Part shown: positions 24,590 to 41,589 of the stretch, in pieces
How positions within the stretch are numbered: position 1 is the stretch's first letter
How the letters are laid out: every line of letters begins with the position of its first letter
Assembly: GCA_003134435.1 (NCBI GenBank)
Contig: PLBE01000221.1
Location: 1 to 64,000 of the forward strand
Source of the DNA: Acidobacteriaceae bacterium
Lineage (GTDB): Bacteria > Acidobacteriota > Terriglobia > Terriglobales > Acidobacteriaceae
Direction of reading: 5' to 3'
Length of the DNA stretch: 64,000 nt
Notes under the pieces: generated by a model
The model's database searches: none
What the model saw: the letters and a program-made list of their open reading frames with translations, nothing else
What the model was told of the DNA's origin: nothing
Translations under genes and position numbers: made by a program

Positions 24590-25735
24590 CTAGCGATTAG
24601 CGCCCAAGCGTCGCATAAAAACAATGGTTGTATTCGGGTAATAATGGCTAAGGATTTGCGCGAAATCTGCACCTCCCTTCGCCATTGCCATCGCTCCCGA
24701 CTGGCAGAGCCCGATGCCATGTCCCTGTCCAGTGCCTTCCAGAATGACATGCTCGCCCTGCTTTCGCCTAATGTAAGTATTGCTGGGAGCGGTACCCCAG
24801 CCCAGCCGTCGATTCAGTTGCAATCGTGACGACTCATCGGAATCGCGCAGGGTGGCGGCATTGCGCGCCGAGATTCGGCTCTGCCAACGCGATGGGTGCA
24901 GGCGGCAGTACTTGCAATCAACCGAATAGTAGGGATAGACGCCGGAAGGAAGGCCGAGTTCGAGAGGCGTGCGGGTACGGCCACGGCAACTGCGAGTGTA
25001 CATTGCCGCAAAAGGCTGCGAGTCGTAGGCCAGCACCAGTCCGCGCGTGGCTAGAGCGGCCTCGGCGACGCTGCCGGGACCGGGCGGGTCGCGCAGAAAC
25101 TGACAATGCGTGCTGTCGCAGAAATCGAACTCGGAGTGGCGCCCCTTGCCGGCGACCAAGTAGGAACGAGCCGCAACCGCCTGGGCTTTCAGAGCCTCGA
25201 TCGGCGCTCCGGCTAAGCCTTCGGCCCCCACCACGGAGGCAACCGCGGTTTCGAGATCCATACTGACCACGGCAACGACAACGCCGGAGACCGGCTTTAA
25301 TTCCAGGGTTCCGCGATAGTGGCGCGCGATCTTTCCTGGAACCGAAAGTACAAAACCTGCCGGGCCGCCGTCCCGACCGGTGATGGTCAGTGTGGAAGTA
25401 TGTACAGTGCTGGTTCCGACGCGGACCGCCAGGACGCTCCCGATGGAACGCACCTCGGCGACCTGCACACCAGAACTTCTTTCCAGTACTGAGGTTTGTT
25501 GTTCACTGTGCAAAATGAGCGCGTTGTTGTCCTCCGCACTCACGGTTAGCTCGCGCGGTTCGAACAGACCGAGCACACCGATACGAACGTTCCCGTTTCG
25601 CGGCTCCTGAGTTCGTACGCGCTCGACGCGAGCATCCTCTGCCAACGCTACCGCCAACAGCATCACTCCGCAGGCGATAGCCAGTTTGATGGCACTCTCA
25701 ATTCGTCCGTGCTGTCTTGGCGCATGTCGGCTCAT
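24590..25735 (-). CDS. SpoIID/LytB domain protein, secreted
   Basis: A 381-residue protein with an N-terminal hydrophobic segment (about 16-32) that would export or anchor it. The SpoIID region spans about 140-375: AEGLAGAPIEALKAQAVAARSYLVAGKG, then HCQFLRDP, SVDCKYC, and the closing GTGQGHGIGLCQSGAMAMAKGG with YYPNTTI. SpoIID of Bacillus is a lytic transglycosylase acting on denuded glycans; LytB enhances an amidase. Non-sporulating bacteria carry related proteins of unknown role. Its ATG overlaps the stop of the transpeptidase gene (ATGA), so it is the last gene of the six-gene operon. Confidence 0.85.
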   Translation of the reverse strand: MSRHAPRQHGRIESAIKLAIACGVMLLAVALAEDARVERVRTQEPRNGNVRIGVLGLFEPRELTVSAEDNNALILHSEQQTSVLERSSGVQVAEVRSIGSVLAVRVGTSTVHTSTLTITGRDGGPAGFVLSVPGKIARHYRGTLELKPVSGVVVAVVSMDLETAVASVVGAEGLAGAPIEALKAQAVAARSYLVAGKGRHSEFDFCDSTHCQFLRDPPGPGSVAEAALATRGLVLAYDSQPFAAMYTRSCRGRTRTPLELGLPSGVYPYYSVDCKYCRLHPSRWQSRISARNAATLRDSDESSRLQLNRRLGWGTAPSNTYIRRKQGEHVILEGTGQGHGIGLCQSGAMAMAKGGADFAQILSHYYPNTTIVFMRRLGANR

Positions 25736-26673
25736 GGCTCAATGCTGCGCAACATCCGTCCGGCGATTCCGGCGGCCTGGCTACCCGGAACCCCATGAAC
25801 ACGAACCAGAAGCAGAACGGTCGGATGGCCGGCTGGGAACAACACTACGGTGAAACCGTCGCCCGGGGCGTGCCGCGCATGAATGCAGGGTGCAGTGCCA
25901 GTTTTGGCGAGAGCCACGGAGTTTAGAAGAGCGCGATCGACATCAGCGGCAGTTCCCTGCCGCGCCGACTGCGCCATCCCGTCCAGCACCAGGCGCACTC
26001 CCCGGTCGTAACGGCTTCGAATCAACTCCCGGTATGCACGAGCCATGTTTAGCGGCGCGATCAACCATGCCGTGTCGGAACCGTGATCAGGACCGGGGTC
26101 CGCGGCAACATGATTGCTCAATCCGGCGAGGGCAGGACCGGAGTTTTCTTTCGATGGAGGCTGCAGTCCGAAGCGGGCCGCGAACGGAGTCATCTCCGCG
26201 GCAGTCATCTGTGCTGTAAGCATTCGAAAGTAAGAGTTGCACGATTGCGCGATGGCAGACGTGAGATCCATCTTGCCGTGGCCGCGAGGGCGCCAGCAAC
26301 CGGTGCTTGCACCGCGACAGATATGCACGGGATATCTGAAATCGTGCCCTTCACCGTAGGCTAGGGCCGTGAAAGGCTTAACCAGCGACCCCATCGCAAT
26401 AGGTATCTCGGGATGATCCCAACGCGAGGCAAGCACCTCTCCAGAGGGAATGTCAATCAGCAGAAACGAAATATCATCGCTGGGGAAATCGCGATGGAGC
26501 GTCTGGGCGGTGGATTGAGCAAACAGCGAAGTTCCTCGACTGTCACTGCTCAAGTTTGAGCGCCCGTCCATGCCACTGTCACTGCGACCTGGCGTGGAAC
26601 GCTGCGCGCGCTGGCTTCCAGGAAACAGCAAGCAGAGGCCGACGATTACCAGCAGGAGCGCGAGAATTCTCAT
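25732..26673 (-). CDS. Small penicillin-binding-type transpeptidase domain protein
   Basis: A 313-residue exported protein: hydrophobic N-terminus (3-17), a polar linker, then a compact serine-transpeptidase fold. All three motifs are in order: Ser96-Leu-Val-Lys99 (SxxK), Ser144-Cys-Asn146 (SxN) and Lys257-Thr-Gly259 (KTG). It is about half the length of class B PBPs and lacks a dimerisation domain, so a D,D-carboxypeptidase, a beta-lactam sensor or a small transpeptidase are all possible. ATG 26673 overlaps the previous stop as ATGA, which decides against the ATG nine bases upstream. Confidence 0.8.
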   Translation of the reverse strand: MRILALLLVIVGLCLLFPGSQRAQRSTPGRSDSGMDGRSNLSSDSRGTSLFAQSTAQTLHRDFPSDDISFLLIDIPSGEVLASRWDHPEIPIAMGSLVKPFTALAYGEGHDFRYPVHICRGASTGCWRPRGHGKMDLTSAIAQSCNSYFRMLTAQMTAAEMTPFAARFGLQPPSKENSGPALAGLSNHVAADPGPDHGSDTAWLIAPLNMARAYRELIRSRYDRGVRLVLDGMAQSARQGTAADVDRALLNSVALAKTGTAPCIHARHAPGDGFTVVLFPAGHPTVLLLVRVHGVPGSQAAGIAGRMLRSIEP

Positions 26674-28385
26674 CGGGACCATTCGTAGGTAACCGTTTGC
26701 AAGACTCGGTCTGGTTCGGCGCGCAGCACCACTCTCTCCGCGGAAACACCGGCGAGGGTCGCGCTCAGGCTCGTCATGTTGTCGGAGAAGAATTGCGGTT
26801 TCTGATCCATGCCGCGAACATCAGAAAGCGACCCGGTCGGCCGGTCGACCAAGCCAAAGAAGCGCGCGAAGTTGCTCTGCTCCTGCCTGTGATTGAAACC
26901 GGCGATCAAGGTTGCGGACTTGACATCCGACTTGCGGTTCAGTCCTGCCAACATGGCCTTGATCAAGGCAGGGTCGTCAGCAATCATAAGAACCTTGCCG
27001 CGAACAGCCAGCGCAAGCGGCCACAATCCATCGAGTTTGTAATAGCCTGACGACTGCTCCCAGACAAGTCCATGCTCGCCCGCGGTGAGACCGGGTCGCA
27101 GGAAGTCCGTCAGTCCGGCCTGAACGGCAGGCTCATTCCAGTCCGAGGCCGCAGCCAGACCAATGGCGGAGTGAATTCGGATGAAGACTCCCGACGGATC
27201 GCGCTCGGTCGATTGCACCTGGAGCGAAGCCAGAATCTGTGTTTTCTCAAACAATGCTTTCAAAAGCCCTGTGCCTTGAGGCCGGACGATCGGTGCAACG
27301 GCTTGTTGATCGATACGAGTCTCAAGATCGGACCCGCCACCGGTTTCGCCGGAGGTGAGTTGTACTTCGGGAGCCATCTCGGAAACAAGCGAAGGGCCAG
27401 AATGCGGGGCCAGGAGCTTGGTTTCAATCAGGTCGAAACAGGAATCGCGGGAAGGATACGCCTTGGTTTCGTAGATGGCCGCACGTTCTGGGATCAGGCG
27501 GATCAGGCTGGCGGCCTCCTCCAATCCTGTATCAGCGACCGGCGATGCCGGTGATTTCCGAAGCAAAACGCGCTCCTCGCGGTATTGCTCGAGGGAACGA
27601 AACAAGTCGGACACCGCGGCGGAGTACTGCTTCATTTCGGTAATGTTCTGCTGAACCCAGTAGGTTCGGAAATACGGGCTGGGGACAATTTTCTCGAGAT
27701 TCATCACCATGCGGAGATCGCCCGCCGGTCCGGCGGACGCGACCGCTTGCGACCACCATGGCTCGGAGGCCAAGTCGTGAACTTGCGTCTGGGTCTGGCT
27801 TTTCGACATCAGTTGCAGCGCGCCGGCCAGAAGATCTTCGCGGGTCGCCAACAGCAGGTAGTCGCCGGAAACGGCAAAGGCGACTTGCTTCTGCGATTCA
27901 GGATCGCTGCGCACGTAGAAAGCGACTCCGCCAGCGTTCCGCGGTTCAAACTTCGCGCGCGTTTGCCAAAGCGTCGTTTGCATCGACCTCGCCGATGGCA
28001 AGTAGGTCACATAGAGGAACTCGAGGTTCCCGATGTCATACAGAGCCAGCGCGCTGCGCGTTCCGGCGACCTGCGACAGGAAATCCATGCTGGGAGGAAT
28101 TCCGGCAGCGGCAGCGAATTGGGCGCTAGCTCCCTGAAGACGAAGAAGAAGGCGCGAGCGCGAGAAGACTTCGTAATTGCTGGTCGTGACCCATTGTTTT
28201 TTTTCAGTGGAGGAATTCCAATCCGCCAGCAATGAAGATAAGTCTCGCGCCTCGAGGTACAGCAGCGAACCAGCGGGAACGTACTTGGAAAGCGCCTTTT
28301 CCGGGGCGGTCGCGGCATGGTAAGCGGCCCGGCCAATGGCGGCAAGCAGCAGGGCGAGGGAAAGAAAAAGGAAGATGCGTTTCAT
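26670..28385 (-). CDS. DUF3352-like exported protein, unknown function
   Basis: A 571-residue protein with a signal peptide or anchor (MKRIFLFLSLALLLAAIGRAA). The pattern that follows (SKYVPAGSLLYLEARDLSSLLADW, then VAFAVSGDYLLLATREDLLAGAL, later IRIHSAIGLAA) resembles DUF3352, a family of secreted proteins of unknown role. No catalytic motif is visible. It overlaps both neighbours in the operon by four bases. The 40500-41429 protein has a similar DDNTLAFGTEASLKSAL element and may be a distant paralogue. DUF2138 proteins of enterobacteria are an alternative relation to test. Confidence 0.65.
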   Translation of the reverse strand: MKRIFLFLSLALLLAAIGRAAYHAATAPEKALSKYVPAGSLLYLEARDLSSLLADWNSSTEKKQWVTTSNYEVFSRSRLLLRLQGASAQFAAAAGIPPSMDFLSQVAGTRSALALYDIGNLEFLYVTYLPSARSMQTTLWQTRAKFEPRNAGGVAFYVRSDPESQKQVAFAVSGDYLLLATREDLLAGALQLMSKSQTQTQVHDLASEPWWSQAVASAGPAGDLRMVMNLEKIVPSPYFRTYWVQQNITEMKQYSAAVSDLFRSLEQYREERVLLRKSPASPVADTGLEEAASLIRLIPERAAIYETKAYPSRDSCFDLIETKLLAPHSGPSLVSEMAPEVQLTSGETGGGSDLETRIDQQAVAPIVRPQGTGLLKALFEKTQILASLQVQSTERDPSGVFIRIHSAIGLAAASDWNEPAVQAGLTDFLRPGLTAGEHGLVWEQSSGYYKLDGLWPLALAVRGKVLMIADDPALIKAMLAGLNRKSDVKSATLIAGFNHRQEQSNFARFFGLVDRPTGSLSDVRGMDQKPQFFSDNMTSLSATLAGVSAERVVLRAEPDRVLQTVTYEWSR

Positions 28386-31300
28386 TGCTTAACTCCTCCT
28401 TGCCGCAAATTAGCGTCGTCGAGTGCGACCTTCATTGCCAGCGCCTCGCGAACTGCAAGCCGCGGCCGAACCACGCCATCCTGTTCCAGAGCTTCATGCA
28501 ACAGCGGTTGGCGAGCGGCGTTCTGACGTTCGGCCCACAATTCGGCCTTGGCGACTGCGATGTTGTGGCTGAGTCGCTTGCGAGCTTCTGGCGAGTTCTC
28601 AGCGCGACGAGCTATTTCAAAATATGAGACTGCATCCGCCAGATGATGGAGGCGCATCATGACGTCACCAATTGTCCGCGCCAACTCCGCCTGCTGGGTG
28701 CCGGTAAGAGACTGACTCGCACTCGTTGGAATTGTTTGGGCAGCCTCATCCTCATCGCCGTCATCCTCGCGGCCATCAGAACTATGCGGCGGCGCGTCGT
28801 CCGCAGTGAGGTTGCCCCCCGGGCTTAAATCTAGCCTTGCACTGTGGCGCGAACCGAAGCCTGGGCCAAGGCTTGAAGTGGGAGAGCCGAGGAAATGCCT
28901 CTGGATCAGTGGATCGAGAATGGCCACGGCGAACTCGTCCGATCGCAGAGCGGCCGCCGCCATGAACAGTGGGACCAGAGCTTCATCGCGGCGCGGAAAA
29001 TCGATGATGCAATGGCTGAGCAGCCGGACCTTCGTATGCGCGTCCGCAGCGTTGTGAGCGGCGCGGATGCGAGATTCATAGAAGTAGAACTGATCCGTTT
29101 GAGCTGCGGTGATGGCCTTAGGATCTCCGGCGAGCAAGTTCAGCTCGCCACTGCCAAGATCCGGGTGCGGATGCCCGGCCAAAGCCAGCGCAGCCTCGAT
29201 TCGAACATGGTAAGCGTCCTTCGCTCCCGCGGCGATCGACGCCAACATGGCTTCGGAGCGAGCGGCGTCCTTACCGGCGGCGATCTTCGCTTTGGCCAAT
29301 CGCAAACGGTAGGTACCATCCCATGGCGCTGACTGGACGAGTTGATCGAGAAATTCGATCGCTTCGGCGTTGTGACCGGATTTCTCCAGAAGGGCGGCGG
29401 CGGGATCGAGATTCTCAAAAGGATTACCGACAACAACCACCAAGCGGCGCAACAGACTGAGCCCGCCGGGCGTATCCCCCGACGCGAGCCGGGTCTCGGC
29501 GAGACCTAAGAAGTTGGCCGCAGTCAGTTGATGGTCGTCGATTTCCCGGGCAAAGACGAATTCGAGAATCTTGCGGGCCGCCTGCCTGTCGCCGCCTTCC
29601 AACAGTTTTTGCGCGGCGCGGCGCAGGATCTCCGGAGCTGGAACGTTCTGGGGCTGGTTGCGATACCCCGCTATGGTCTCATCGAGCGTTCCAAGTTTCG
29701 CGGCCACTTTGAGAGCAAGTGGGACCAGAGCGCCCTCCCGGGAATCGCGGGTCTCTTTCGGCAAAGCGCCTAAGGCATCGGCGGCCGATGCGTACTTCTT
29801 TGTGCGTACCATGTACGTGATCCAGCGCACTTGCCAGGAGTCAAGACCCTGCTGCGCGTTGTCGCGTTCAGCCCCATCCAGTTTAACGAGCAGGTCCTGT
29901 TTGGACTCAATAATCCGCCGATAGATGGGAGCACGCACGGCGAGCGGGATCCAGGCAGCATCGACGACATCGGCCAATATCTGCGTGGAATCGTGAGCGG
30001 CAGAGGAAATATCCAGAAGCCAAGCGGTCGCGGAAACTGGATCGCCGATGGCGGTATAGGCGGGTTGCAGCATGGCGTTCGAACGCCAGTTGCCGTATTG
30101 ATGCAGATAGGCGCGAATGATCGCATCGGCATCGGGCTTGAGCTCAGGGTAGAGCCTGCGGACGCGAAGCTGATCGCAGGTACGTCCAAAATCACGCCAG
30201 AAACTCTCGGGAACGTGAGTGCTGACCAGCTGTTTGGAGAGCGCGTCGAAGGCCTGTTTCCACTGGGCTAGAGCGGCAGCGCGGTCGCCTTGCTTGTAGT
30301 ACGCGACCGCCAGGTTGTCATAAACATCGGCGCGGTTCGGTGTAAGTTCAAGGGTGTGCTGGTAGTCGACAATGGCACGCCGCGTTTCACCAGCGTCGGC
30401 ATAGTAATTGGCCAGCGCCAGGTATTCAGAGGGAGTCGCCGGACTCTGTTCCAGAAGGGCCGGCAGAAAGTCTTCGGAATGGCCGCGCTTGCTAACGTCC
30501 AAATACTCACCATACCGCGAACCGTAGTAGAACCAGGTGTTACCCGCGAGTTGCTGGGAGCGATCGACCGGCTTCGTGAGGCGCTCTGCAACAGTGTTGT
30601 CGCCCAGGGTATCGGTAAAAGCGGTGTCTGCGGTGGCAGTGGGCTCGGCAAAATAAAGTGCGACGAGCGCGTTGTAGGCCTTGTTCCATACGGGTGGGCG
30701 CGCCGCTCCGCGGGCTTGTACAACGGAGTGCGCCAGTTCGCCACTCCCGTGCGCGACCACGTAACTCGCCGCCTGCTCGCCCGATGGCCTCGGCCAGATC
30801 GATGCGATGCGAACCAACTCCCGGGGTTGATGCGCGAGAAGCAACTGGAAGAAACGTTGTTGGCGCGTCGGATCCAAACCGCTTGCGGCAAAAACGCCGG
30901 CGAGGACACGTTGTTCGTCGGCTTCGTTGCCGGCGGAACGATAAGCATCGGCGGCGGCGAGGGGCGGGGCATTGCCAAACGCCGGGGGCACGCCCTTTTC
31001 GTACTGCTCAAGCTTTAATCCAAGTTCGGCAAACCGGCCGCGGCGGCGCTCCAGATTGATAAACGGCTGCACCTGAGCATACGAATCTTTGAAGGCGGTT
31101 GGCTTCTCCATCATCAACTCAAAGCGCCAACGCGATTCCTGGTCGGCGAGAGCGGCACTTTCAGCGAGAGGAATGGCAAACTGCTCGACGTCGAGCGCAC
31201 TCATGACCCGGCGCGTGTTTTCGGCAAAGGTGGCGAAAGTCTGACGCTCCTCGGGAGTGAAGTAAGCATTCACCGTGCCACCCATCTCTTCGAGGACGGC

Positions 31301-34300
31301 AGCCATGCCGTTGCGCGCGGTAGCGATGCGGTTCTGGTGGACTCGTTCGCGCCACTGGGTGTCGGTTACAGCGGCAATCCCCTGCTTTTCGACTTGCTCT
31401 TTGAGAACGGGCAAACTCGCCGGGGCGTCCGCGAGGGCGTTCGCGACGGTCATGTAGGCCTGCTCGTGCTGGCGCAGGCGGGTCATGATGTGGACGTAGG
31501 TTTTAGCGCCAGCGTGATTCTCCGCAACGGCCAGCAGGTCCGAGCCCGCGGCCTTGACTCCGCGCTCGGCAAATGTACGCGCTTCAGTGAGCATGCCCCA
31601 CGATTCGAGCCGCCGGGCAACCTCAAAATAGTTGGCAGCATTTTCGGGACGCCCATCGATGAGCGTGGTCTGCAGCGCGGCGACCACGTCTTTTTCTTTG
31701 CCCTGACGCGCGCGCACTGCCGCGACCTTCTCCATCCACTGCGGATCTTTGTATGCCAGCTGAAAAACACGCTCGTAGTCCGCTGCCGCATCGTCGAAGC
31801 GCATCAACCGCTCTTCGAGTCCGGCGCGAGCAGTGTACAGATCGACGCGATCGGGGCGGATAGCAATCGCCTTGGCATAAACATCGATCGCAGCCGGATA
31901 GTTCTCCAGATTGGTCTGGATGCGGGCCAATACGGTCGACCAGCGATCATCGCGCGGAGACTGGACCACGGTCCTGGAATAGAAGTCCACGAGTTGCTGC
32001 CGGCGCTGGTAGCGGAGGGCATAGAGCGCGGCCTCGCTTGCGGCCGCTTCGTCTTCGGGGAAATTATTAATCAACTCGATGTACTGGTCGACCGCGCCCG
32101 GGTAGTCCTTTAAGCGGGTGAGCGCCGGGATCAAACCGCGACGCAGAGCGGCAATTTCGTTTTTGCGCGCATCAGCCGAAAGAGGCGCACTACGCAGGAG
32201 CTCAATTTCGTCGACATAAAATTGCTGAAGTCCGTGATCGTCGCCCGCCTGTGCATAGGCATCCGCCATGGCGGCCAGATACTCCGCGTTGTAAGGAGAA
32301 TCCTTCAGAAGCCGGGTAAGCAAATCGCGCGCCTGCTGATACTGTTTCGCATCGGTCGATTTCCGAGCCGCCTCGTAAGTGAACTGCTGGCTCAGTTCCG
32401 GGTAGGCGTCTCTCGCCGCCTGCAGCAGGACAGCAATGACTTGCGGAGTTTTACCGGTGCGCCAGTAAAAGTCAACGGTCGAGCGAACTACACCAAGAAT
32501 CCTGGGATTTTCTCGATAGAGTAGCGCAACATTCTTCTCGGCCGACTGGAAGTCCTTGCGCCCTTCGTACAACTGAATCACCGCATACCGAAGTTGCAGC
32601 CGGGTGACGGGGTCGGTGGTGAGCGCCGCCTGTCTTTCCAGAGCGTGCTGGCGCACGGTTTCGAGCGATTTCTGTTGCGCCAGATTCTCAATATCCTGAG
32701 CCTGTTCAATCGAGGAGGTGCGAGTGACAAGCGAGTCCAGTAGAGCTTCCATTTCGGGCTTGCGATTCTGCGCTTCCAGCACTTTCGCGCGCAGGAAGAC
32801 GGAAGAAGTCGATACGGTAGGTATAGGAGCATTCGGCAGCGTGAGGATGTTGGCGGTCGCCAGATCGACCAGATCGCGAAACTTGGGACGTCGCGCCAGA
32901 GCTAACAGCCTGAGTTGGGCAGGAGAACTGGGAAGTCCGCTGAGCGATCCGCGAACGTATTCCTCGATCGCGTGGGCGTAGTCGCGCCGGTTCTCAAAGA
33001 TCGCGCCAGCTTCGTAGGCGTAAAGGTTCGAATCGTGCAGGCGGTCACGACCCCGATTCAACATGCGCAAAGCGTTGTCAAAATCGTAATAGTCCCAATA
33101 AATCGTGGCCGATTCCAGATAACCGCCAGCCTCGCCCGGGGCAACCTGGGAGATACGCTCCCAGTATGGCGCGGCATCGGCGAAGCGCTCGCGGTCGGCA
33201 TAGATGTCGCCGATTCGCGCCATGATTTCGGTATCGCGGGGATTCGCCCGCAGCCAATTGTCTTCAATTTTGACCGCGACCGCAGTGTCAGCGGGCTCGA
33301 AGTAAGCCAGAGAGCGAAAAACAGACGAGGCGCTTCGAGCAATCTCCGGTTCGGCAGGATACTGGGCGGCCAGCGATTCGAGCACGGGCGCGCTCGCTTC
33401 AAAGTGCGACTGCCAGAGTTCGGCGACAGCGATGAAATCAGCAGCAGCGGGATTGCGTTCCCAACTAACGTCATCGGGCGCACTCTGGCGCAAAGCGCTC
33501 AACTCGGGTTCCAACTTGCCGGTTCGTGAAAGATATTCGAAAAACTGGTTGCGGAGTTCTGTTTCTTCGAACCAATGCTGGCGTAACAGCGCCTCCCATG
33601 CGATGGGATCGCGAGTCAGAGGCATCTGGTATGCGGAGAGAAGGTTGTGAACAAATACGGGGTTGTGCGGGAAGCGCTGGTGGGCGTACTGATTCAACCG
33701 GAGATACAGAACCGGGCCATCACCATACACATTATCGTTGAAGTACCGTTCCAGGTCGCTACCATTAAAGCTTCTCACGGCTTCGCGGGTCAGTTGCTCG
33801 AAATCTGAGTTTCGCCGCTGACGCAGATAGAAGCGCGCCATCTTGTCGTACCAGGACTTCGCCGGGAAGCGGGCGATTGCCCGGCGGTAAACTTCTTCCT
33901 GTTCAGCGCCGAGTTGGTTCTGATCGAGGAACTCGGCAAGCCGCTGGTAGAGTCCAGGATCGTCGGGATTGTGGTCAATCTCCCGCCGCAGAACCATAAG
34001 CGCCTGTGGAATCTGTTTCAACTGCACCAGGCGAGCCAGATAGCGATCGAGAACGTGCGCGTATTCGGGTGAGCGGGCGTCCGTCTGAGACGTGGGCGAG
34101 GCCGCTGAACTGACTTGAAACGCCTGGCTTGGCGGGCGTCGCGCGGTTGCGCTCTGTGGCGACCCGGCGTCCTCTCCCTCACCACCCCGGTCGTCTCCGC
34201 GGTAAATTCCGTTTTCAGCATCGGCGGCTGACAGGTTCAATGCTGCTTCCGCCGAACCCAGAGGCACGTTCTGCGCTTTGCCGGCTAGCTCCTGGAGCAC

Positions 34301-35929
34301 GGAATCGTAGATCGCAAATTCGCTGACACTGTCGTCCTTGCGGGAATAAGCATCGGCCATGAGCAGCGCGACGGAAGTGCGCTCGGGAGCGTTAGGGAAA
34401 TTCGCCAGAAACTCGCGGCCTCTCTGAATGACAGCATCGCTTTCGCCGGCACTCGCATAGAAATCCAGCAGTTCGTAATGAAGCTCCGGACGGCGCGTCG
34501 AGGCGGGGAATTTAGTATCGAGCAAGGCCAGCAGTTCCGCCGCGCGCGCGCGGTGAAAGTAGGGTACGGCGCGTTGCTCTTCCTCGGAATATTGCGCCGC
34601 CGGCGCAGTCGTGTTCAAGAGCAACGAAAGAATACCGTTCAGATAGCCCGGGCCCTGGTCCATGGTAGCGATATCGCGGTACATCGAGAGTTCTCCCGAA
34701 CCAAAGCGGATCGGCGTCTCCGGCGCAGTCAGCAGGAGATTTGCAAGTCCGGAGATAGCCACTTCCTGAGCGTCGGGCAATCCCTTGCTGTTGTAGAGCG
34801 CGAAGTAGTAGCGCGCCGACTCGGGATAAGCGTGGATGTCTTCGAGCAGGCGCGCGCAAATGAATAGCTCCTGCGAAGTCCAAGGCGACTTGCGGCCTTC
34901 CTTGTGGCGGCGGAAATCGGCGATCGCCTGTTGCGCCACATCCAGCTTGCCTTGCTGCTGGTAGTAATAAAAAAGACGCGCCGTCGCGTTGAGATCTTCG
35001 GGGTTGGCGGTCAGCGCAGCGCGCGTCTGATCGAGAAACTTGCGCAGATTGTCGGTTTCACGCAACAGGTCGAAATAGCTTCTGACCAGTTCCGGATCCC
35101 AGAGGGGCTGGAAACTTTGCTCGTAAACCGCCAAGCCCTCACGCACCGAGCCCTGGCGGTACTCAACCATCGCCTTCGCTTTCACGGGGAAAATACGGTC
35201 GCCGGGAAATTGCTGCGTATAGTCGGCAATAAGTCTGGCGGCGGCAGCATACTCTTTCTGCGAAACTAGAAACTGCAGGAAACGGGCATAGAGCGACTGC
35301 TCGCGCGGGTAGCGGGCAATCCAGGCGCGGTACTGGGCAATGGAAACATCCTTCGGCAGACCCTGTTCCTGAATGATGCCAAAGATTCGATCAAACGATT
35401 TCCACGAGCGCTGTTCGGCTGGAGCGATAAGCTTCTCCGCTACACTCGGTGGCGCGTTGGCGATCAGCGCTAGCGTCTTGATTTCATCGGCCGGACGCAG
35501 GCGCCGGTGATAGAAATCCGCGAGGGCCAACTCGGCGTTCGTTGTATCGGACGACCTCTCGACATAGGCCTTCCAGTCAGATTCGGCCGCGGCGGAGTCG
35601 AGCTGTTGCTCGTCCTCAAGCGCGCGCAGAGAGTAAAGCTCGGCATTGCCGGGCTGGGCTTTGATGAGGTCGGCGAGCGCCGGACGAGTTTCGCGCGCTG
35701 GGCGGCGAAAGAGTACATCGCCTCCGGGCAGCGCCATGACGCGAAAGAACACGTCATGGAGCGCGCTCCCCGCCTCGATGTTCCGAACCCAGGAAGGCAA
35801 CTCGCCGACGGCAGAGATGGCAGAGCCAATTGCGATCACGAACGCAGTCACCGCCAGCAGGCGCCTACGCCGGCGCGATGAAAAACTGTATCGGCGATCA
35901 CTTTGCAAACGATCAAGGAAGCACTTCAA
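28382..35929 (-). CDS. Giant tetratricopeptide-repeat protein (about 2,515 residues), membrane-anchored
   Basis: One uninterrupted frame of 2,515 codons made of helical TPR-like repeats throughout, such as ALYNSKGLPDAQEVAI and AVDQYIELINNFPEDEAAA. A basic stretch and one hydrophobic segment near the N-terminus (SRRRRRLLAVTAFVIAIG) suggest an anchor with the repeats in the periplasm. Two low-complexity linkers break the repeats, near residue 600 (EGEDAGSPQSATARRPPSQ) and near 2370 (acidic, DGREDDGDEDEAAQ). Start TTG 35929 is chosen because AGGAGG lies six bases upstream; it overlaps the VIT/VWA gene by 17 bases. Such a protein should be a scaffold for partner binding; the partners are probably the operon's other products. 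Confidence 0.85.
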   Translation of the reverse strand: MKCFLDRLQSDRRYSFSSRRRRRLLAVTAFVIAIGSAISAVGELPSWVRNIEAGSALHDVFFRVMALPGGDVLFRRPARETRPALADLIKAQPGNAELYSLRALEDEQQLDSAAAESDWKAYVERSSDTTNAELALADFYHRRLRPADEIKTLALIANAPPSVAEKLIAPAEQRSWKSFDRIFGIIQEQGLPKDVSIAQYRAWIARYPREQSLYARFLQFLVSQKEYAAAARLIADYTQQFPGDRIFPVKAKAMVEYRQGSVREGLAVYEQSFQPLWDPELVRSYFDLLRETDNLRKFLDQTRAALTANPEDLNATARLFYYYQQQGKLDVAQQAIADFRRHKEGRKSPWTSQELFICARLLEDIHAYPESARYYFALYNSKGLPDAQEVAISGLANLLLTAPETPIRFGSGELSMYRDIATMDQGPGYLNGILSLLLNTTAPAAQYSEEEQRAVPYFHRARAAELLALLDTKFPASTRRPELHYELLDFYASAGESDAVIQRGREFLANFPNAPERTSVALLMADAYSRKDDSVSEFAIYDSVLQELAGKAQNVPLGSAEAALNLSAADAENGIYRGDDRGGEGEDAGSPQSATARRPPSQAFQVSSAASPTSQTDARSPEYAHVLDRYLARLVQLKQIPQALMVLRREIDHNPDDPGLYQRLAEFLDQNQLGAEQEEVYRRAIARFPAKSWYDKMARFYLRQRRNSDFEQLTREAVRSFNGSDLERYFNDNVYGDGPVLYLRLNQYAHQRFPHNPVFVHNLLSAYQMPLTRDPIAWEALLRQHWFEETELRNQFFEYLSRTGKLEPELSALRQSAPDDVSWERNPAAADFIAVAELWQSHFEASAPVLESLAAQYPAEPEIARSASSVFRSLAYFEPADTAVAVKIEDNWLRANPRDTEIMARIGDIYADRERFADAAPYWERISQVAPGEAGGYLESATIYWDYYDFDNALRMLNRGRDRLHDSNLYAYEAGAIFENRRDYAHAIEEYVRGSLSGLPSSPAQLRLLALARRPKFRDLVDLATANILTLPNAPIPTVSTSSVFLRAKVLEAQNRKPEMEALLDSLVTRTSSIEQAQDIENLAQQKSLETVRQHALERQAALTTDPVTRLQLRYAVIQLYEGRKDFQSAEKNVALLYRENPRILGVVRSTVDFYWRTGKTPQVIAVLLQAARDAYPELSQQFTYEAARKSTDAKQYQQARDLLTRLLKDSPYNAEYLAAMADAYAQAGDDHGLQQFYVDEIELLRSAPLSADARKNEIAALRRGLIPALTRLKDYPGAVDQYIELINNFPEDEAAASEAALYALRYQRRQQLVDFYSRTVVQSPRDDRWSTVLARIQTNLENYPAAIDVYAKAIAIRPDRVDLYTARAGLEERLMRFDDAAADYERVFQLAYKDPQWMEKVAAVRARQGKEKDVVAALQTTLIDGRPENAANYFEVARRLESWGMLTEARTFAERGVKAAGSDLLAVAENHAGAKTYVHIMTRLRQHEQAYMTVANALADAPASLPVLKEQVEKQGIAAVTDTQWRERVHQNRIATARNGMAAVLEEMGGTVNAYFTPEERQTFATFAENTRRVMSALDVEQFAIPLAESAALADQESRWRFELMMEKPTAFKDSYAQVQPFINLERRRGRFAELGLKLEQYEKGVPPAFGNAPPLAAADAYRSAGNEADEQRVLAGVFAASGLDPTRQQRFFQLLLAHQPRELVRIASIWPRPSGEQAASYVVAHGSGELAHSVVQARGAARPPVWNKAYNALVALYFAEPTATADTAFTDTLGDNTVAERLTKPVDRSQQLAGNTWFYYGSRYGEYLDVSKRGHSEDFLPALLEQSPATPSEYLALANYYADAGETRRAIVDYQHTLELTPNRADVYDNLAVAYYKQGDRAAALAQWKQAFDALSKQLVSTHVPESFWRDFGRTCDQLRVRRLYPELKPDADAIIRAYLHQYGNWRSNAMLQPAYTAIGDPVSATAWLLDISSAAHDSTQILADVVDAAWIPLAVRAPIYRRIIESKQDLLVKLDGAERDNAQQGLDSWQVRWITYMVRTKKYASAADALGALPKETRDSREGALVPLALKVAAKLGTLDETIAGYRNQPQNVPAPEILRRAAQKLLEGGDRQAARKILEFVFAREIDDHQLTAANFLGLAETRLASGDTPGGLSLLRRLVVVVGNPFENLDPAAALLEKSGHNAEAIEFLDQLVQSAPWDGTYRLRLAKAKIAAGKDAARSEAMLASIAAGAKDAYHVRIEAALALAGHPHPDLGSGELNLLAGDPKAITAAQTDQFYFYESRIRAAHNAADAHTKVRLLSHCIIDFPRRDEALVPLFMAAAALRSDEFAVAILDPLIQRHFLGSPTSSLGPGFGSRHSARLDLSPGGNLTADDAPPHSSDGREDDGDEDEAAQTIPTSASQSLTGTQQAELARTIGDVMMRLHHLADAVSYFEIARRAENSPEARKRLSHNIAVAKAELWAERQNAARQPLLHEALEQDGVVRPRLAVREALAMKVALDDANLRQGGVKQ

Positions 35930-38303
35930 TCTGCACCTCCTGGGTCCCAATGTTGTGCGCTATATCTTCGGCGGTTACAGTCAGCGCGTACCTACCGGGA
36001 ATGGTTTGTGCTGGAATCAACAGATCGCCCGTGTTGGCGGCAGCTGTCGCATTCCACCTCAGTTCGACAGGCGCAGCGCCTTCGAGTCGCGCCACCAGCG
36101 TACGGGTGCTCTGCGAGGCTCCAACCTTCAGCGTTATGGTCTGGCCGCGCTGAAAGAGCTTGCGATCAAGCTTCACTTCGACGATCGGCGGCCGGCTCGC
36201 GATCACGAATGTCTTCGACGCCCGATAGGCATGCCCCAGGCGATCGCGCAGAATCAGGCGTACCGTGTAGGTTCCATCCCGCATCTCGGCGGGCGCAAGA
36301 AAGCGAGTCTGCCAGACATCTTCGGACGAAAGATGGCGAAGCGGCTGCACCAGGCCAAACGGAAACAGCGCGATGACCGAGACCATCGACGGATCGGCCT
36401 TAACCCGCAGCACGGGATCGCCAGGGCGGATAACGCGAGGCCGCAGCAAAGCGCGCGGAGCGGCCAGGAACGATGTATACGGCGTGACGAATTTGTACTG
36501 ACGCGCAAGACGGATGATCTCGTCAATGGTGGCTTGATCTTCGCCATCGCGCTCGATCTTTTCGAGCAGCGCATCCACTCGGGCGCGCGCCCACAACCGC
36601 GGCAGTTGCGAGTGTGCAAGAGATTCACCCGGCAAGTTGACATTGCCTTCCATTCCGAGCGCTGCTCCGTCACGCACCCCGCTGACCTTAAAGCTGACAT
36701 TTTCCTGCGGCCTCTGGAAACGCCCCACCCATGAGGCGAGAGACCCGGAAAATATTGCGCCGTGCAGCGGGTAGACGCTATCGACAGCGGATTCCGGCGC
36801 TACCGTAAGCTGCAGTTGCCCAACCGGACTGCGCCCAATTTTCGCGAGAAATGAACTCAGCTTGAAGTCCATCGGTTCCGTGGAGAGTACATGTTCCAGA
36901 ACCCCGTCCTGGCGCGCGAGCAGGCGAAACAAGGGCAGGTTGGCATCGTCACCCACGGCGAGAATGTAGGTGCGCGGGCGCTGCGTCTCGGCGAGTCGTT
37001 GCCATGCGGAGGCGTACCACGCTGCCAGCTTTCCATTCTGAATAGGACCACGCGTGGCGCCGCCATCGCTGAGAATGACCAGATACGCATTGTTTACTCC
37101 AGCAGCAGCCGCTTGCTGCAGTCCGGTCTCGAGCGCGCGTTGAATATCGGTGCCTCCACGCAGGCGGCTGGAGCGGACGAAATCAATCGCATGTTGAATG
37201 TGAACCGGGTCAGCGGTGGTCACGGGTAACACTTGAGTTTCACTGTTGAAGAGCACCAGGCTGAAACGATCGGTGGGACGCAGCGTCCTCAGAAGTGTTT
37301 CAAAAGCCCGGTAGCTGCGCTCTAGTTTTTCCCATTGCATCGACAGCGATGTATCGAAAAGGACAACGATTGTCTTGGGGACGATCGAGTTGGAAGCGGC
37401 GATTTCCGGTTTTTGCCCCACCGCCGCCGCTTGACCCAATCCCAGCAGAGCCTCCACCTCGAAGAAACCGGGTTCGTTCGCGCTGCGGACCGGGGATTTC
37501 TCCGTCGGCGCGGGCTGTCCACTGACCGCGTTGCGGTAGGTCAGAACCTGCAGGCTGTCGGATGCGGCGGGATCGAGGTCGTAGGTAATGGCGAAGTCTT
37601 CCGCCAGATTTACGTTCTGTGCTTCGAAGTGTCCGGCAACGAGGTGGGGCGTATTGTGATCGAATTGCAGCGGGAAGCTCTTTGCCGGCGACTGGAAGTT
37701 GCGAATGGCGTGCGCCGAGCGCAGTTCGAAGTTGACACGAAGATGGCGGGCCACCTGCGCCGAATAGGCGTCGGGACGCAACGGGATGGCGAAGTAGGAC
37801 TTCAGATTCTCCACCGCAATCGACTCGTGATACTCGATTTCGAGGCGCTTCGTGCCGAATGCGGGGATTGGAACAATGCGCGCGCTGAAGACGGACGTGC
37901 GTTTCGCTTCTTCGGCGCCGCGCTCCCCCATCTCCAGCAAACCAGGATCGATGGCCTGTTGCTTGAGTTGGTTGTAGATCTCCTCCGCCCGCTTGCGCTC
38001 GAGAATTACCGCGGGGATGCGAATGGGGCCATCCCACGTGGCGAAATCAGACACAGTCGCGTGGCTGGGTAGCGCAAAAATGTAATTCCCTTCTTCGATG
38101 CTCGCGGTGTGGTTGGCAAAAACCTGGCGCACGAAGACGCGAGCATCCCCGTTGTCGATCTGGACTGTAATTTCCATTTCTTCGAGCGAGAGAATGGAAG
38201 AATCGGGCTGCTGCTTGTCGCGGGGAAGCAGCACGCCCGCGTCAGCCCGCAGCATCGCCGCAGCCAGCAGCGAAAAAAACATCGAGAGTACTATGCGTTT
38301 CAT
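35913..38303 (-). CDS. VIT and von Willebrand factor A domain protein, exported
   Basis: A 796-residue protein. Signal peptide MKRIVLSMFFSLLAAAMLRA; a VIT domain (about 45-170) as in inter-alpha-trypsin inhibitor heavy chains, with YIFALPSHATVSDF and ERKRAEEIYNQLK; a VWA domain (about 310-490) with a complete metal site: DTSLS, the threonine of RGGTDIQRAL and VILSDGGATRG; and a C-terminal Ig-like region (DGTYTVRLILRDRLGH and a final RYALTVTAEDIAH). Family members bind proteins through the metal site. ATG overlaps the propeller stop by four bases. It is predicted periplasmic or surface-bound, a likely partner of the TPR protein. Confidence 0.88.
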   Translation of the reverse strand: MKRIVLSMFFSLLAAAMLRADAGVLLPRDKQQPDSSILSLEEMEITVQIDNGDARVFVRQVFANHTASIEEGNYIFALPSHATVSDFATWDGPIRIPAVILERKRAEEIYNQLKQQAIDPGLLEMGERGAEEAKRTSVFSARIVPIPAFGTKRLEIEYHESIAVENLKSYFAIPLRPDAYSAQVARHLRVNFELRSAHAIRNFQSPAKSFPLQFDHNTPHLVAGHFEAQNVNLAEDFAITYDLDPAASDSLQVLTYRNAVSGQPAPTEKSPVRSANEPGFFEVEALLGLGQAAAVGQKPEIAASNSIVPKTIVVLFDTSLSMQWEKLERSYRAFETLLRTLRPTDRFSLVLFNSETQVLPVTTADPVHIQHAIDFVRSSRLRGGTDIQRALETGLQQAAAAGVNNAYLVILSDGGATRGPIQNGKLAAWYASAWQRLAETQRPRTYILAVGDDANLPLFRLLARQDGVLEHVLSTEPMDFKLSSFLAKIGRSPVGQLQLTVAPESAVDSVYPLHGAIFSGSLASWVGRFQRPQENVSFKVSGVRDGAALGMEGNVNLPGESLAHSQLPRLWARARVDALLEKIERDGEDQATIDEIIRLARQYKFVTPYTSFLAAPRALLRPRVIRPGDPVLRVKADPSMVSVIALFPFGLVQPLRHLSSEDVWQTRFLAPAEMRDGTYTVRLILRDRLGHAYRASKTFVIASRPPIVEVKLDRKLFQRGQTITLKVGASQSTRTLVARLEGAAPVELRWNATAAANTGDLLIPAQTIPGRYALTVTAEDIAHNIGTQEVQIEVLP

Positions 38304-40243
38304 GAGTGCAGCTTCTGTTCTGGAATTCGAACCAGCCCGTTGTCAGTGCCGATGTAGAGATAACCGCCGCCAACCGCGAGCGCGGTCACGTTCAAGGACG
38401 GCAGTCCGTGGTCGATGATCGACCACCGTTCCGATTGGCGATCGAAAACGTACAAACCTTTCCCCAAAGTCCCAGCCAGCACATGATTGGGCGTCACCAG
38501 CATCGCATTGGGATTGACTTCGAAGGCGCCGGACGCATTCTCGAAAGTATGGAAATGGCCCGAGCGATCCAGACCGAGAATGCCTGCACCGTAGGTTCCT
38601 ACCATCCAATCGGAACCGACGCGCACCACGCCGGTAATCCAGTTGTGCTTCAGGTTCGAACTTGTCGTGGTGTAATTCATCGTGACGTCGCCCTTTTCCA
38701 GCACCGAAAGACCTCCCAGTGTGCCGGCGAGCAGTTCGTCGTCCGCGACGCCGAGCGCATAAACATGGTTGTTCACCAAACCCTGGAAGGCGTAGATACT
38801 GCGGGCTCCACTGGGGTCGAGAAAGGTCAGGCCTGCGGGAGTCGCCAGGGCAATGCCGTCGCGATAAGCAGCAACGTCGGTCACGTGGTCGGCAATGAGC
38901 CCATCGGCGCGAGTGAGAACCTGCTGCTCGCTGCCGGCGCTGTCAAAGCGAACCAGGCCGTTCGCGGTGGCCACGTCAATCGTGCCCGCCTTCGGATCGA
39001 GCAGGATACGGTTAATGCAGAACACGTGTTCGTCTTCGATATGAGATGCGCGCGCATTGTCGGGCTCCAAAAGGTCAAGCCCGCGGTCGAAGTATCCCAC
39101 CCATAGCCTGCCATTGGCATCCTTTGCCAGGGCGGAAATATTGCGATCGCTCAGCACCACTGGACCTGGTTGCAGCACTTGCTCCCATCCGAAACCGTTA
39201 GAGTTCATGCGGTAGAGTCCGCTGCGAGCCACCGCGAATACGGAATCGGCGGAGCTGAAAAGCTGGCGCACTTCGGACAACTGGGGTCTTGACTCCGAGG
39301 TCTCTTCAGCAGCCGGCCCCGGATTCGGACGTCGCCCTTCGAGCGCAATCGGAATCACGCCTTGATCTTCGGTTCCGACGTAAAGCTGTTTCGGTGTCGC
39401 GAGCAGAGCGGTAGCCATGACTCCGGGAGCGAGCACGCGGGAAAAGCGTCCGCCCCTAAAGACAGCGACACCGATTGGCGTGCCAACGTAGGTGGTATCG
39501 CCGGAAATGGCGAGCGACTCGACCTGCGGATCGGGCAGTCCTTGCGCTTCGGAGAAGTCGTCGGTAGCGGCGGCATGGAAATGAAGAACACCCCGGTCCA
39601 GAGTCCCGACCCACAAGTCCGACTCACTGCCGGCGAGGGCGGTCACATAGACATCTTTCAATGAGGGATGCAGGACGGCAATCTGCTTGCCGTCGTAGAC
39701 AAGAACGCCTCGCCTTTTCGTGCCGATCAGCAGATGGCCCGAGGTATCCGGCAAAATGGCGGTGATGGCGCGCGCATCGGCGCCGTCAGGAACGATCTGC
39801 CGAAACCCGCGGCCGTTGAAGGCGAGCAGGCCATCGTTCGCGGTGGCCAGAATGATCTCAGGTTCACGGGAGTCAGCCAGAACTGCGGAAACCAGAGCGA
39901 TCAGCGGCGATCCAGGAAGATCGCGGCCTACCGCATATTGGTGAACCAGAACGCCGCGCGGATCATATTCGAGAAGTCCGGCCGGACCGGCGACATAAAG
40001 ATGATCCTGAAATCGAGTCGCCTGGAAGAATACCGCAGGCGAACTGATGACTTCGAAATCGGCGTTGGCAGAGGAGGCCAGCGGACGAACGACAAATCGA
40101 ATCGCGCTGGCCGATCGGACGTCCCTGGCTGCCGAATGCAGAGCGCTCGTGGCGCGCCAGATTACGAACGCTCCCACTGCCATGGTGAGCAGGAGCGTGG
40201 CTGCGACTGCTCTGCGCACTGACGGGACGACCGTCCGCTTCAT
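38300..40243 (-). CDS. Membrane-anchored beta-propeller protein (two-component-regulator-propeller type)
   Basis: A 647-residue protein with one N-terminal membrane helix (AVAATLLLTMAVGAFVIW) and about 550 residues of repeats of the Reg_prop kind: ITAILPDTSGHLLIGTKRRG, VTALAGSESDLWVGTLDRG, ISALAKDANGRLWVGYFDRG, ending VTALAVGGGYLYIGTDNGLVRI. Such repeats fold as blades and form the sensor part of hybrid kinases, but no kinase or output domain follows here. ATG 40243 has GAGGAAGG five bases upstream; the frame is open to 40378. It is the first gene of the six-gene operon. Confidence 0.85.
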   Translation of the reverse strand: MKRTVVPSVRRAVAATLLLTMAVGAFVIWRATSALHSAARDVRSASAIRFVVRPLASSANADFEVISSPAVFFQATRFQDHLYVAGPAGLLEYDPRGVLVHQYAVGRDLPGSPLIALVSAVLADSREPEIILATANDGLLAFNGRGFRQIVPDGADARAITAILPDTSGHLLIGTKRRGVLVYDGKQIAVLHPSLKDVYVTALAGSESDLWVGTLDRGVLHFHAAATDDFSEAQGLPDPQVESLAISGDTTYVGTPIGVAVFRGGRFSRVLAPGVMATALLATPKQLYVGTEDQGVIPIALEGRRPNPGPAAEETSESRPQLSEVRQLFSSADSVFAVARSGLYRMNSNGFGWEQVLQPGPVVLSDRNISALAKDANGRLWVGYFDRGLDLLEPDNARASHIEDEHVFCINRILLDPKAGTIDVATANGLVRFDSAGSEQQVLTRADGLIADHVTDVAAYRDGIALATPAGLTFLDPSGARSIYAFQGLVNNHVYALGVADDELLAGTLGGLSVLEKGDVTMNYTTTSSNLKHNWITGVVRVGSDWMVGTYGAGILGLDRSGHFHTFENASGAFEVNPNAMLVTPNHVLAGTLGKGLYVFDRQSERWSIIDHGLPSLNVTALAVGGGYLYIGTDNGLVRIPEQKLHS

Positions 40244-40267
40244 GACTACCTTCCTCGCAGAAAGTGA

Positions 40268-40295
40268 ACTATAAACCTCGAACACTTCGCGGCAA
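40268..40295 (-). promoter_or_regulatory. Promoter of the six-gene envelope operon
   Basis: Minus-strand TTGCCG (40295-40290), 16 bases, TATAGT (40273-40268). Start expected near 40261, giving an 18-base leader that holds the GAGGAAGG ribosome-binding site. Confidence 0.5.
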
Positions 40296-40440: not shown

Positions 40441-40474
40441 AAAGAAAACGTCCCGGGGGAAATCCCGGGACGTT
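40441..40474 (-). terminator. Intrinsic terminator after the 40500-41429 gene
   Basis: Arms AACGTCCCGGG and CCCGGGACGTT form a perfect 11-bp stem with a six-base loop; on the minus strand TTTTCTTT follows. It ends the gene that stops at 40500 and separates it from the propeller operon. Confidence 0.85.
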
Positions 40475-40499: not shown

Positions 40500-41429
40500 C
40501 TAGTGAGAAACGGCGGCGAACAGCGGCGAGTGCATCAGGGACTGAAACTTCTGGTCGTCACTTTTGAAGTGCAGTTGCACATTGGAGCTGTCGGAATCGA
40601 CAGTGGTAGCGTCGAGAGCTGTTTTTTCAATCGGGCTGGCATTCAGTTTCTTGTAGAGCATGCCGGCCTTGACGACAGACGAGAGCGTAGCCGCCGTCAT
40701 CGAGTCGGCGGTGAGGACGCTCAAATCGAAATTGACTCCACTCTGGAAGTTCATGGTATAGCGCGAGGCCAGGATGCGCTTCTTGAGGGTGTCGTAGTCC
40801 GCAACTTTGGCGGCATCGCCCAGGGCGGAAAACATCATGGCCTGGGTTCCCTTCTGGTCGAGAACACTCCACACCGGCGCTCCATCCACCGCGGCCATCT
40901 GTTCCGTCATGGTCGGATTGGAATCCAACGATGGACGCTTGCCATCGCGAGTATCGAGCGCGCTCTTCAACGAAGCCTCGGTGCCGAAGGCCAACGTGTT
41001 GTCGTCCATGAAGGTCATCACCAAGCCGTTATCCATCGGGTAGATGCTGGCGGTACCGTATTTCGTGGCCGCGATCTTCTTGAGCTTCAGTTTCTTGAGG
41101 ACAACTTTGGCAGAGAACGAGCCAGCCGCCACGCCGATGGTTTGAATTCCCTTCTTGTCAGTGCGGAAAGAGGCGAAGTTGAGCTGGTCGAGATCGTGCT
41201 CAGCATCAATGCCAATGCCCTTCAGGGCAGTTTCGAGCTCCTTGAGGTTGTCGGGCAGGACTTGCTGTTTGAGCGCCTGGGCGGTGGGCGAATCCTTGAG
41301 CGCGCGATAATCGACGCCGATCAGTTGCTGAATCTCAGATGGCACCATGGAGCGCGCCGAGGATGCAATCGGCATGGCGTAGCCAGCCGTGGCGCACAAA
41401 ACCAAAACTGCAAGGCATACATTCTTCAT
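40500..41429 (-). CDS. Secreted protein of unknown function, DUF3352-like
   Basis: A 309-residue protein with a clear signal peptide (MKNVCLAVLVLCATAGYAMP). It is mature-chain alpha/beta with no enzyme motif: LGVDYRALKDSPTAQALK-like opening (GVDYRALKDS), then MDNGLVMTFMDDNTLAFGTEASLKSALDT. That last element is like one in the 26670-28385 protein, so both may share a fold. ATG 41429 follows GAGGG by six bases; the frame is open to 41459. It has its own terminator. A single-gene transcript upstream of the envelope operon. Confidence 0.7.
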   Translation of the reverse strand: MKNVCLAVLVLCATAGYAMPIASSARSMVPSEIQQLIGVDYRALKDSPTAQALKQQVLPDNLKELETALKGIGIDAEHDLDQLNFASFRTDKKGIQTIGVAAGSFSAKVVLKKLKLKKIAATKYGTASIYPMDNGLVMTFMDDNTLAFGTEASLKSALDTRDGKRPSLDSNPTMTEQMAAVDGAPVWSVLDQKGTQAMMFSALGDAAKVADYDTLKKRILASRYTMNFQSGVNFDLSVLTADSMTAATLSSVVKAGMLYKKLNASPIEKTALDATTVDSDSSNVQLHFKSDDQKFQSLMHSPLFAAVSH

Positions 41430-41589
41430 AGAATCCCTCAAAAACAAAATCCTCAACACCAGCCTTTGAAAATGGGACTGTCAAGGTTTGTCTGCAACGG
41501 TTAGATGCAAGTTGCGAAACACTCGTTGGCGACCTTTGCAGTCTTTAAATCCCGTTATGACTTTGATTCTAGCCCTTAATCGGCGGGGC

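Follow-up and report, generated by a model that had tools for sequence, protein, structure and literature searches.

The closest described relatives of the locus presented here are the type II alpha-2-macroglobulin (A2M) operons, Yfa in Escherichia coli (yfaATSQP) and Mag in Pseudomonas aeruginosa (magABCDEF), which likewise encode sets of exported proteins. The Mag complex of P. aeruginosa is a periplasmic, membrane-tethered assembly, and normal processing of MagD depends on MagE (PMC5764988). A similar idea, in which a penicillin-binding protein (PBP) has a partner protein in the periplasm, is met in the pairing of type I A2M with PBP1c (ECAM-PbpC; reviewed in PMC5764988). SpoIID-type enzymes of other bacteria cleave glycan strands in vitro (PMC6635528). 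Here, these systems are compared with a six-gene operon found in a 64,000-nucleotide stretch (the window) of contig PLBE01000221.1 from an Acidobacteriaceae bacterium, a member of the class Terriglobia in the soil phylum Acidobacteriota. The operon comprises six open reading frames (ORFs), all on the minus strand at positions 24590–40243 and each overlapping the next, which encode, in order of transcription, an anchored beta-propeller, a protein with VIT and VWA domains, a giant tetratricopeptide repeat (TPR) protein, an anchored protein of 571 amino acids (aa), a bare PBP transpeptidase and a SpoIID protein. An earlier note on this DNA had described six overlapping genes whose products all carry a signal peptide or an N-terminal anchor. 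The ORFs agree with it, Pfam recognizes the domains of five products, and a hydrophobic N-terminal segment is present in each of the six. The evidence supports one co-inherited, exported six-gene system equipped with wall enzymes. The note matched this set to no described system, and a search of the open-access literature found none either. The genes are as follows.

Gene 1: 38300..40243, minus strand; N-terminally anchored beta-propeller (Reg_prop repeats), 647 aa from ATG 40243 (Pfam Reg_prop, 3.9e-13)
Gene 2: 35913..38303, minus strand; secreted VIT + VWA protein, 796 aa, with a complete metal-ion-dependent adhesion site (MIDAS) (Pfam VIT, 2.1e-17; VWA_2, 5e-11)
Gene 3: 28382..35929, minus strand; giant TPR solenoid with N-terminal anchor, 2,515 aa from TTG 35929 (Pfam TPR families)
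Gene 4: 26670..28385, minus strand; anchored protein of no named family, 571 aa (ORF and homologue alignment)
Gene 5: 25732..26682, minus strand; stand-alone PBP transpeptidase domain, 316 aa (Pfam Transpeptidase, 1.1e-10)
Gene 6: 24590..25735, minus strand; SpoIID/LytB protein, 381 aa (Pfam SpoIID, 1.8e-16; TIGR02669, 1.4e-41)

Gene order across the Acidobacteriota

The protein of gene 4 served as search query and operon marker in 299 Terriglobia genomes, among them drafts on which the genome-wide counts rest, and was found in 46. Whole-genome neighbourhoods, a GTDB-wide scan and other families of the phylum together gave 119 distinct loci. Across these, the order propeller, VIT/VWA protein, TPR protein of about 2,500 aa and anchored protein of about 570 aa is nearly invariant: the TPR gene adjoins gene 4 in 110 of 115 testable loci, in 90 of 95 loci the VIT/VWA gene comes next, and 44 of 50 have the propeller gene in its expected place. 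This is more order than chance would give, and it clearly contradicts the possibility that the genes mostly occur separately, with no conserved order. The PBP gene lies downstream in only 72 of 109 loci and the SpoIID gene in 61 of 99; the locus is therefore a four-gene core with a separable PBP–SpoIID module, which is at times absent or placed at the opposite end. In distant families, the core order is kept and the overlaps are replaced by gaps. The 17-base overlap of genes 2 and 3 recurs in 75 loci, where TTG is by far the commonest start codon, so that this start of the TPR gene, within the last bases of the VIT/VWA gene, is conserved as well. Matches of the GTDB-wide scan, which used one peptide pattern that distant relatives in other phyla could escape, all belong to the Acidobacteriota except for two record titles (Betaproteobacteria, L096; Rhodanobacteraceae, L135), and the contig of the former record also belongs to a genome assigned to the Terriglobia, so that its title is probably wrong.

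The core stands without the PBP–SpoIID pair in Granulicella and in many loci outside the Terriglobia, as would be expected if the two parts had separate jobs, the core being a scaffold for signalling or adhesion and the pair merely sharing its operon. This explanation is unlikely, however: the core has been joined by two distinct lineages of the pair, once on its downstream and once on its upstream side; in several cases a SpoIID gene that is not adjacent lies elsewhere in the genome; and SpoIID is rare in genomes holding neither this operon nor a type II A2M system.

Further copies or relatives of gene 4 were noticed. In the window's genome, a 3.4-kb contig begins with a second, partial copy (38% identity), after which comes a GMC oxidoreductase gene; the copy stems either from a paralogous operon or from contamination (4.4% reported for the genome). 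In one family (f45), a gene 4 relative lies away from any TPR gene (L177, L180 and L181), and two of the genomes concerned (G356 and G345) hold a copy of the operon too.

The wall-enzyme pair and type II macroglobulin operons

Both peptidoglycan-related domains named in the note are recognized by Pfam with the values listed above. In gene 5, the motifs S99-x-x-K102, S147-C-N149 and K260-T-G, which are the SxxK, SxN and KTG of penicillin-binding transpeptidases, are invariant in 26 sequences. The protein has no pedestal domain, and its nearest solved structures are of the PBP2/MrdA, SpoVD and FtsI types. A class D beta-lactamase was also considered and rejected: the second motif is SCN, not SxV, in all 26 sequences, and no oxacillinase is found among the PDB matches. 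Gene 6, the only SpoIID match in its genome, shares with SpoIID/LytB enzymes the domain, the catalytic glutamate (E172, invariant) and the Cys/His cluster (C206, H210 and C211, near-invariant); it differs from them in having no part in sporulation and in its genetic tie to a PBP and to the TPR/VWA/propeller core. Since the PBP motifs and the SpoIID glutamate and Cys/His cluster are kept, both enzymes look active.

The same module is shared with YfaQ. The E. coli protein matches the PBP family with an HH probability of 93% (E 4e-7) and the SpoIID family with one of 83% (Pfam SpoIID, 7e-6), the YfaA and YfaQ profiles consisting of two sequences each (a plasmid search for DUF2138 gave only E. coli and one Citrobacter). 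YfaQ reads PBP-like, SpoIID-like, then DUF2300, the first two domains being arranged as in the window genes. By these comparisons, the PBP–SpoIID pair is a true homologue of YfaQ, in split form. The loose likeness to yfa/mag loci seen earlier thus becomes homology for this pair, and the suspected DUF2300 link holds for its two families as matched by YfaQ, not for the DUF2300/HExxH tail, which is absent; a DUF2138 link for gene 4 did not survive.

Where Terriglobia lack the window operon, they often have a related pair, PBP and SpoIID–DUF2300, convergent to a set of DUF1175, A2M and a gene of about 257 aa. By its domains, this arrangement is a split yfa operon (two loci checked by Pfam, the others showing the same ORF sizes). 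In the PBP tree, a branch with full support separates all 26 operon PBPs from the A2M-linked ones. One lineage (G073 and G034) has an A2M-type pair directly upstream of the propeller gene, replacing the downstream pair. An HExxH motif is present in 18 of 19 A2M-type SpoIIDs and at that place in none of 80 operon-type SpoIIDs, whose lone match sits at an unconserved place; it is likewise missing from the A2M-type pair that the TPR operon has recruited. The motif is thus lost where no macroglobulin is present. The DUF2300 part of E. coli YfaQ (L039:6149-7798) ends in HEYLH, a metallopeptidase-like HExxH common to nearly all A2M-linked SpoIID–DUF2300 proteins of the Terriglobia.

By gene order, MagE would correspond to YfaQ. 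The distribution of the motif suggests that the HExxH tail may serve the macroglobulin, which would explain its loss from SpoIID proteins of the window type.

The window operon itself falls outside the Yfa/Mag family, because four defining features are missing and one is present. No A2M domain occurs in the six proteins, as the note had it, and the genome's only A2M is on another contig; DUF1175 (YfaT/MagC) is absent from the genome; DUF2138 (YfaA) is found in none of 396 genomes of the phylum, and gene 4 compares with YfaA at a probability of 0.4%; the DUF2300/HExxH tail is lacking. The feature present is the PBP-like and SpoIID-like part of YfaQ. Searched for by DUF2138 in those 396 genomes, a canonical yfa operon was not found. 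DUF2135 is missing from the window operon too, PBP and SpoIID, their active sites intact, come from two genes instead of one fusion, and TPR, VIT/VWA and propeller proteins are added; gene 4, N-terminally anchored, is similar in size to YfaA/MagB. Compared with the type I system, where PBP1c is a bifunctional synthase, a bare transpeptidase domain is found here, with no macroglobulin. The A2M of the genome (L218:4719-10070) has 1,783 aa with TED and CarboxypepD_reg domains, in a genome free of DUF1175, and its upstream neighbour (482 aa) has zf-HC2 and CarboxypepD_reg domains.

With DUF1175 as the proxy for type II A2M operons, the two systems prove mutually exclusive. Among the 299 genomes, the operon marker occurs in 46, DUF1175 in 58 and both in none (expected 8.9, P 2e-5); stratification by family gives P 3e-6 and by genus P 0.033, and in five families and seven genera one type alternates with the other. 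SpoIID is found in 42 of 46 operon genomes and 52 of 58 DUF1175 genomes, against 20 of 195 with neither (Fisher P 2.6e-45, uncorrected for relatedness). Three genomes combine an A2M-type pair with the operon, and in these the pair either forms part of the operon or adjoins it at the end of a contig, and is not a second system. Shared ancestry and incomplete assemblies might mimic such exclusion by accident, with no functional replacement; the modest genus-level value and the many genomes that are fragmented metagenome-assembled genomes (MAGs) speak for this, but the alternation of both types and the within-family value make it improbable. The window operon seems, rather, to take the place of the type II A2M system, a known trap for proteases, in the Terriglobia.

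Core proteins and limits of the locus

Gene 2 is the most conserved member (median identity 57%), and the metal site claimed as complete in the note (DxSxS..T..D) recurs in every homologue of the alignment. Its VIT + VWA architecture is that of the marine sortase target proteins (TIGR03788), but its score of 144.6 bits lies far below the cut-off of 551.65. The TPR protein has the 2,515 residues first reported when counted from TTG 35929 (the frame is open upstream to 35950), and no transmembrane segment was found beyond its N-terminal anchor. Gene 4 has 20 invariant residues across 25 homologues, with no match in Pfam or NCBIfam and no PDB relative by sequence. The note had called it DUF3352-like and proposed DUF2138 for comparison; Pfam gives neither DUF3352 nor another convincing family for any of the 25 members, and DUF2138 fails in the YfaA comparison given above.

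Generic TPR matches of gene 3 to BcsC, PgaA and PilW, all below cut-off, and a propeller match of gene 1 to PorZ, also below cut-off, would suit a machine for export or assembly, in which the TPR, propeller and VIT/VWA proteins build a route across the envelope by which a surface polymer or protein travels, while the PBP and SpoIID open the wall for its passage. The dispensability of the PBP–SpoIID pair is as an accessory should show, and on one MAG contig (L040:1-1500, G044) a Wzz chain-length domain stands in frame before the TPR protein, either because the contig is chimeric or because the two are truly fused. That joint lies at a contig end, however; the flanks of 43 loci show no recurring porin, translocase, ATPase or polymerase; and the exclusion with A2M operons is left unexplained, so that such a machine has a low probability.

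Around the operon, two further features were annotated.

40447..40474, minus strand; intrinsic terminator of the preceding gene (perfect 11-bp stem with 8 G-C pairs, T-rich tail)
40268..40295, minus strand; promoter-like TTGCCG-16-TATAGT, suitably placed for ATG 40243 (not above chance)

The terminator at 40474-40447 and the strong ribosome site GAGGAAGG, 7 bases before ATG 40243 of gene 1, mark the boundary of the unit; the gene 1 frame is open upstream to GTG 40378. The promoter-like element on which the note relied is present, but such sites occur at chance level (5 found versus 4.6 expected). From gene 6/5 to gene 2/1, the overlaps measure 4, 13, 4, 17 and 4 bases; lengths of 4 or 17 had been reported, which holds except at the gene 5/4 junction, where 13 bases become 4 if the internal ATG 26673 is used. 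No flanking family that would enlarge the operon is common to more than 3 of 43 loci compared. The upstream neighbour, a 319-aa ORF at window positions 40500-41459 (minus strand) with no Pfam match, ends before the strong terminator.

A proposed macroglobulin-free scaffold for wall enzymes

The reading preferred here, held with somewhat less than even confidence, is that of a membrane-tethered periplasmic scaffold which positions wall-cutting and cross-linking enzymes as a macroglobulin-free alternative to Yfa/Mag. The scaffold would consist of the TPR protein and the product of gene 4, each fixed to the inner membrane by its N-terminal anchor; the solenoid, with some 70 helical hairpins judging from its length, could supply many docking surfaces, and the VIT/VWA protein and the propeller would dock on it as binding modules. 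SpoIID, as a lytic transglycosylase, would cut glycan strands, and the PBP transpeptidase would trim or cross-link peptide stems, so that the wall could be opened locally and then re-sealed or repaired. A Yfa/Mag-like pair of wall enzymes would thus be attached to a TPR/VWA/propeller platform rather than to a macroglobulin. We infer that the proteins physically associate and dock, that the enzymes act in the cell and that the purpose is repair or defence. The sensing proposed in the note would be a further, hypothetical role.

Several points weigh against this scaffold. About one-third of the loci have no PBP or SpoIID adjoining the core, and 4 of the 46 operon genomes have no SpoIID at all; the core must therefore do more than wall work. 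Gene 4 has no detectable sequence relation to YfaA, genus-level exclusion rests on few mixed genera, and the DUF1175 marker is backed by direct Pfam checks at two loci only. A bolder version seems rather doubtful: a new envelope machine, a TPR super-scaffold loaded with VWA and propeller proteins and commanding its own wall cutter and cross-linker, which has arisen as a replacement for the complement-like macroglobulin system of bacteria, the two exchanging their wall-enzyme module.

The poorly understood Yfa/Mag macroglobulin operons are now linked to an undescribed gene system that spans the phylum, and YfaQ is revealed as a protein with PBP-like, SpoIID-like and HExxH parts. If the HExxH part serves the macroglobulin, the reported dependence of MagD processing on MagE would fit. 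If it is true that the two systems are alternatives, the wall role of type II macroglobulin operons would become testable in culturable Acidobacteria such as Granulicella.

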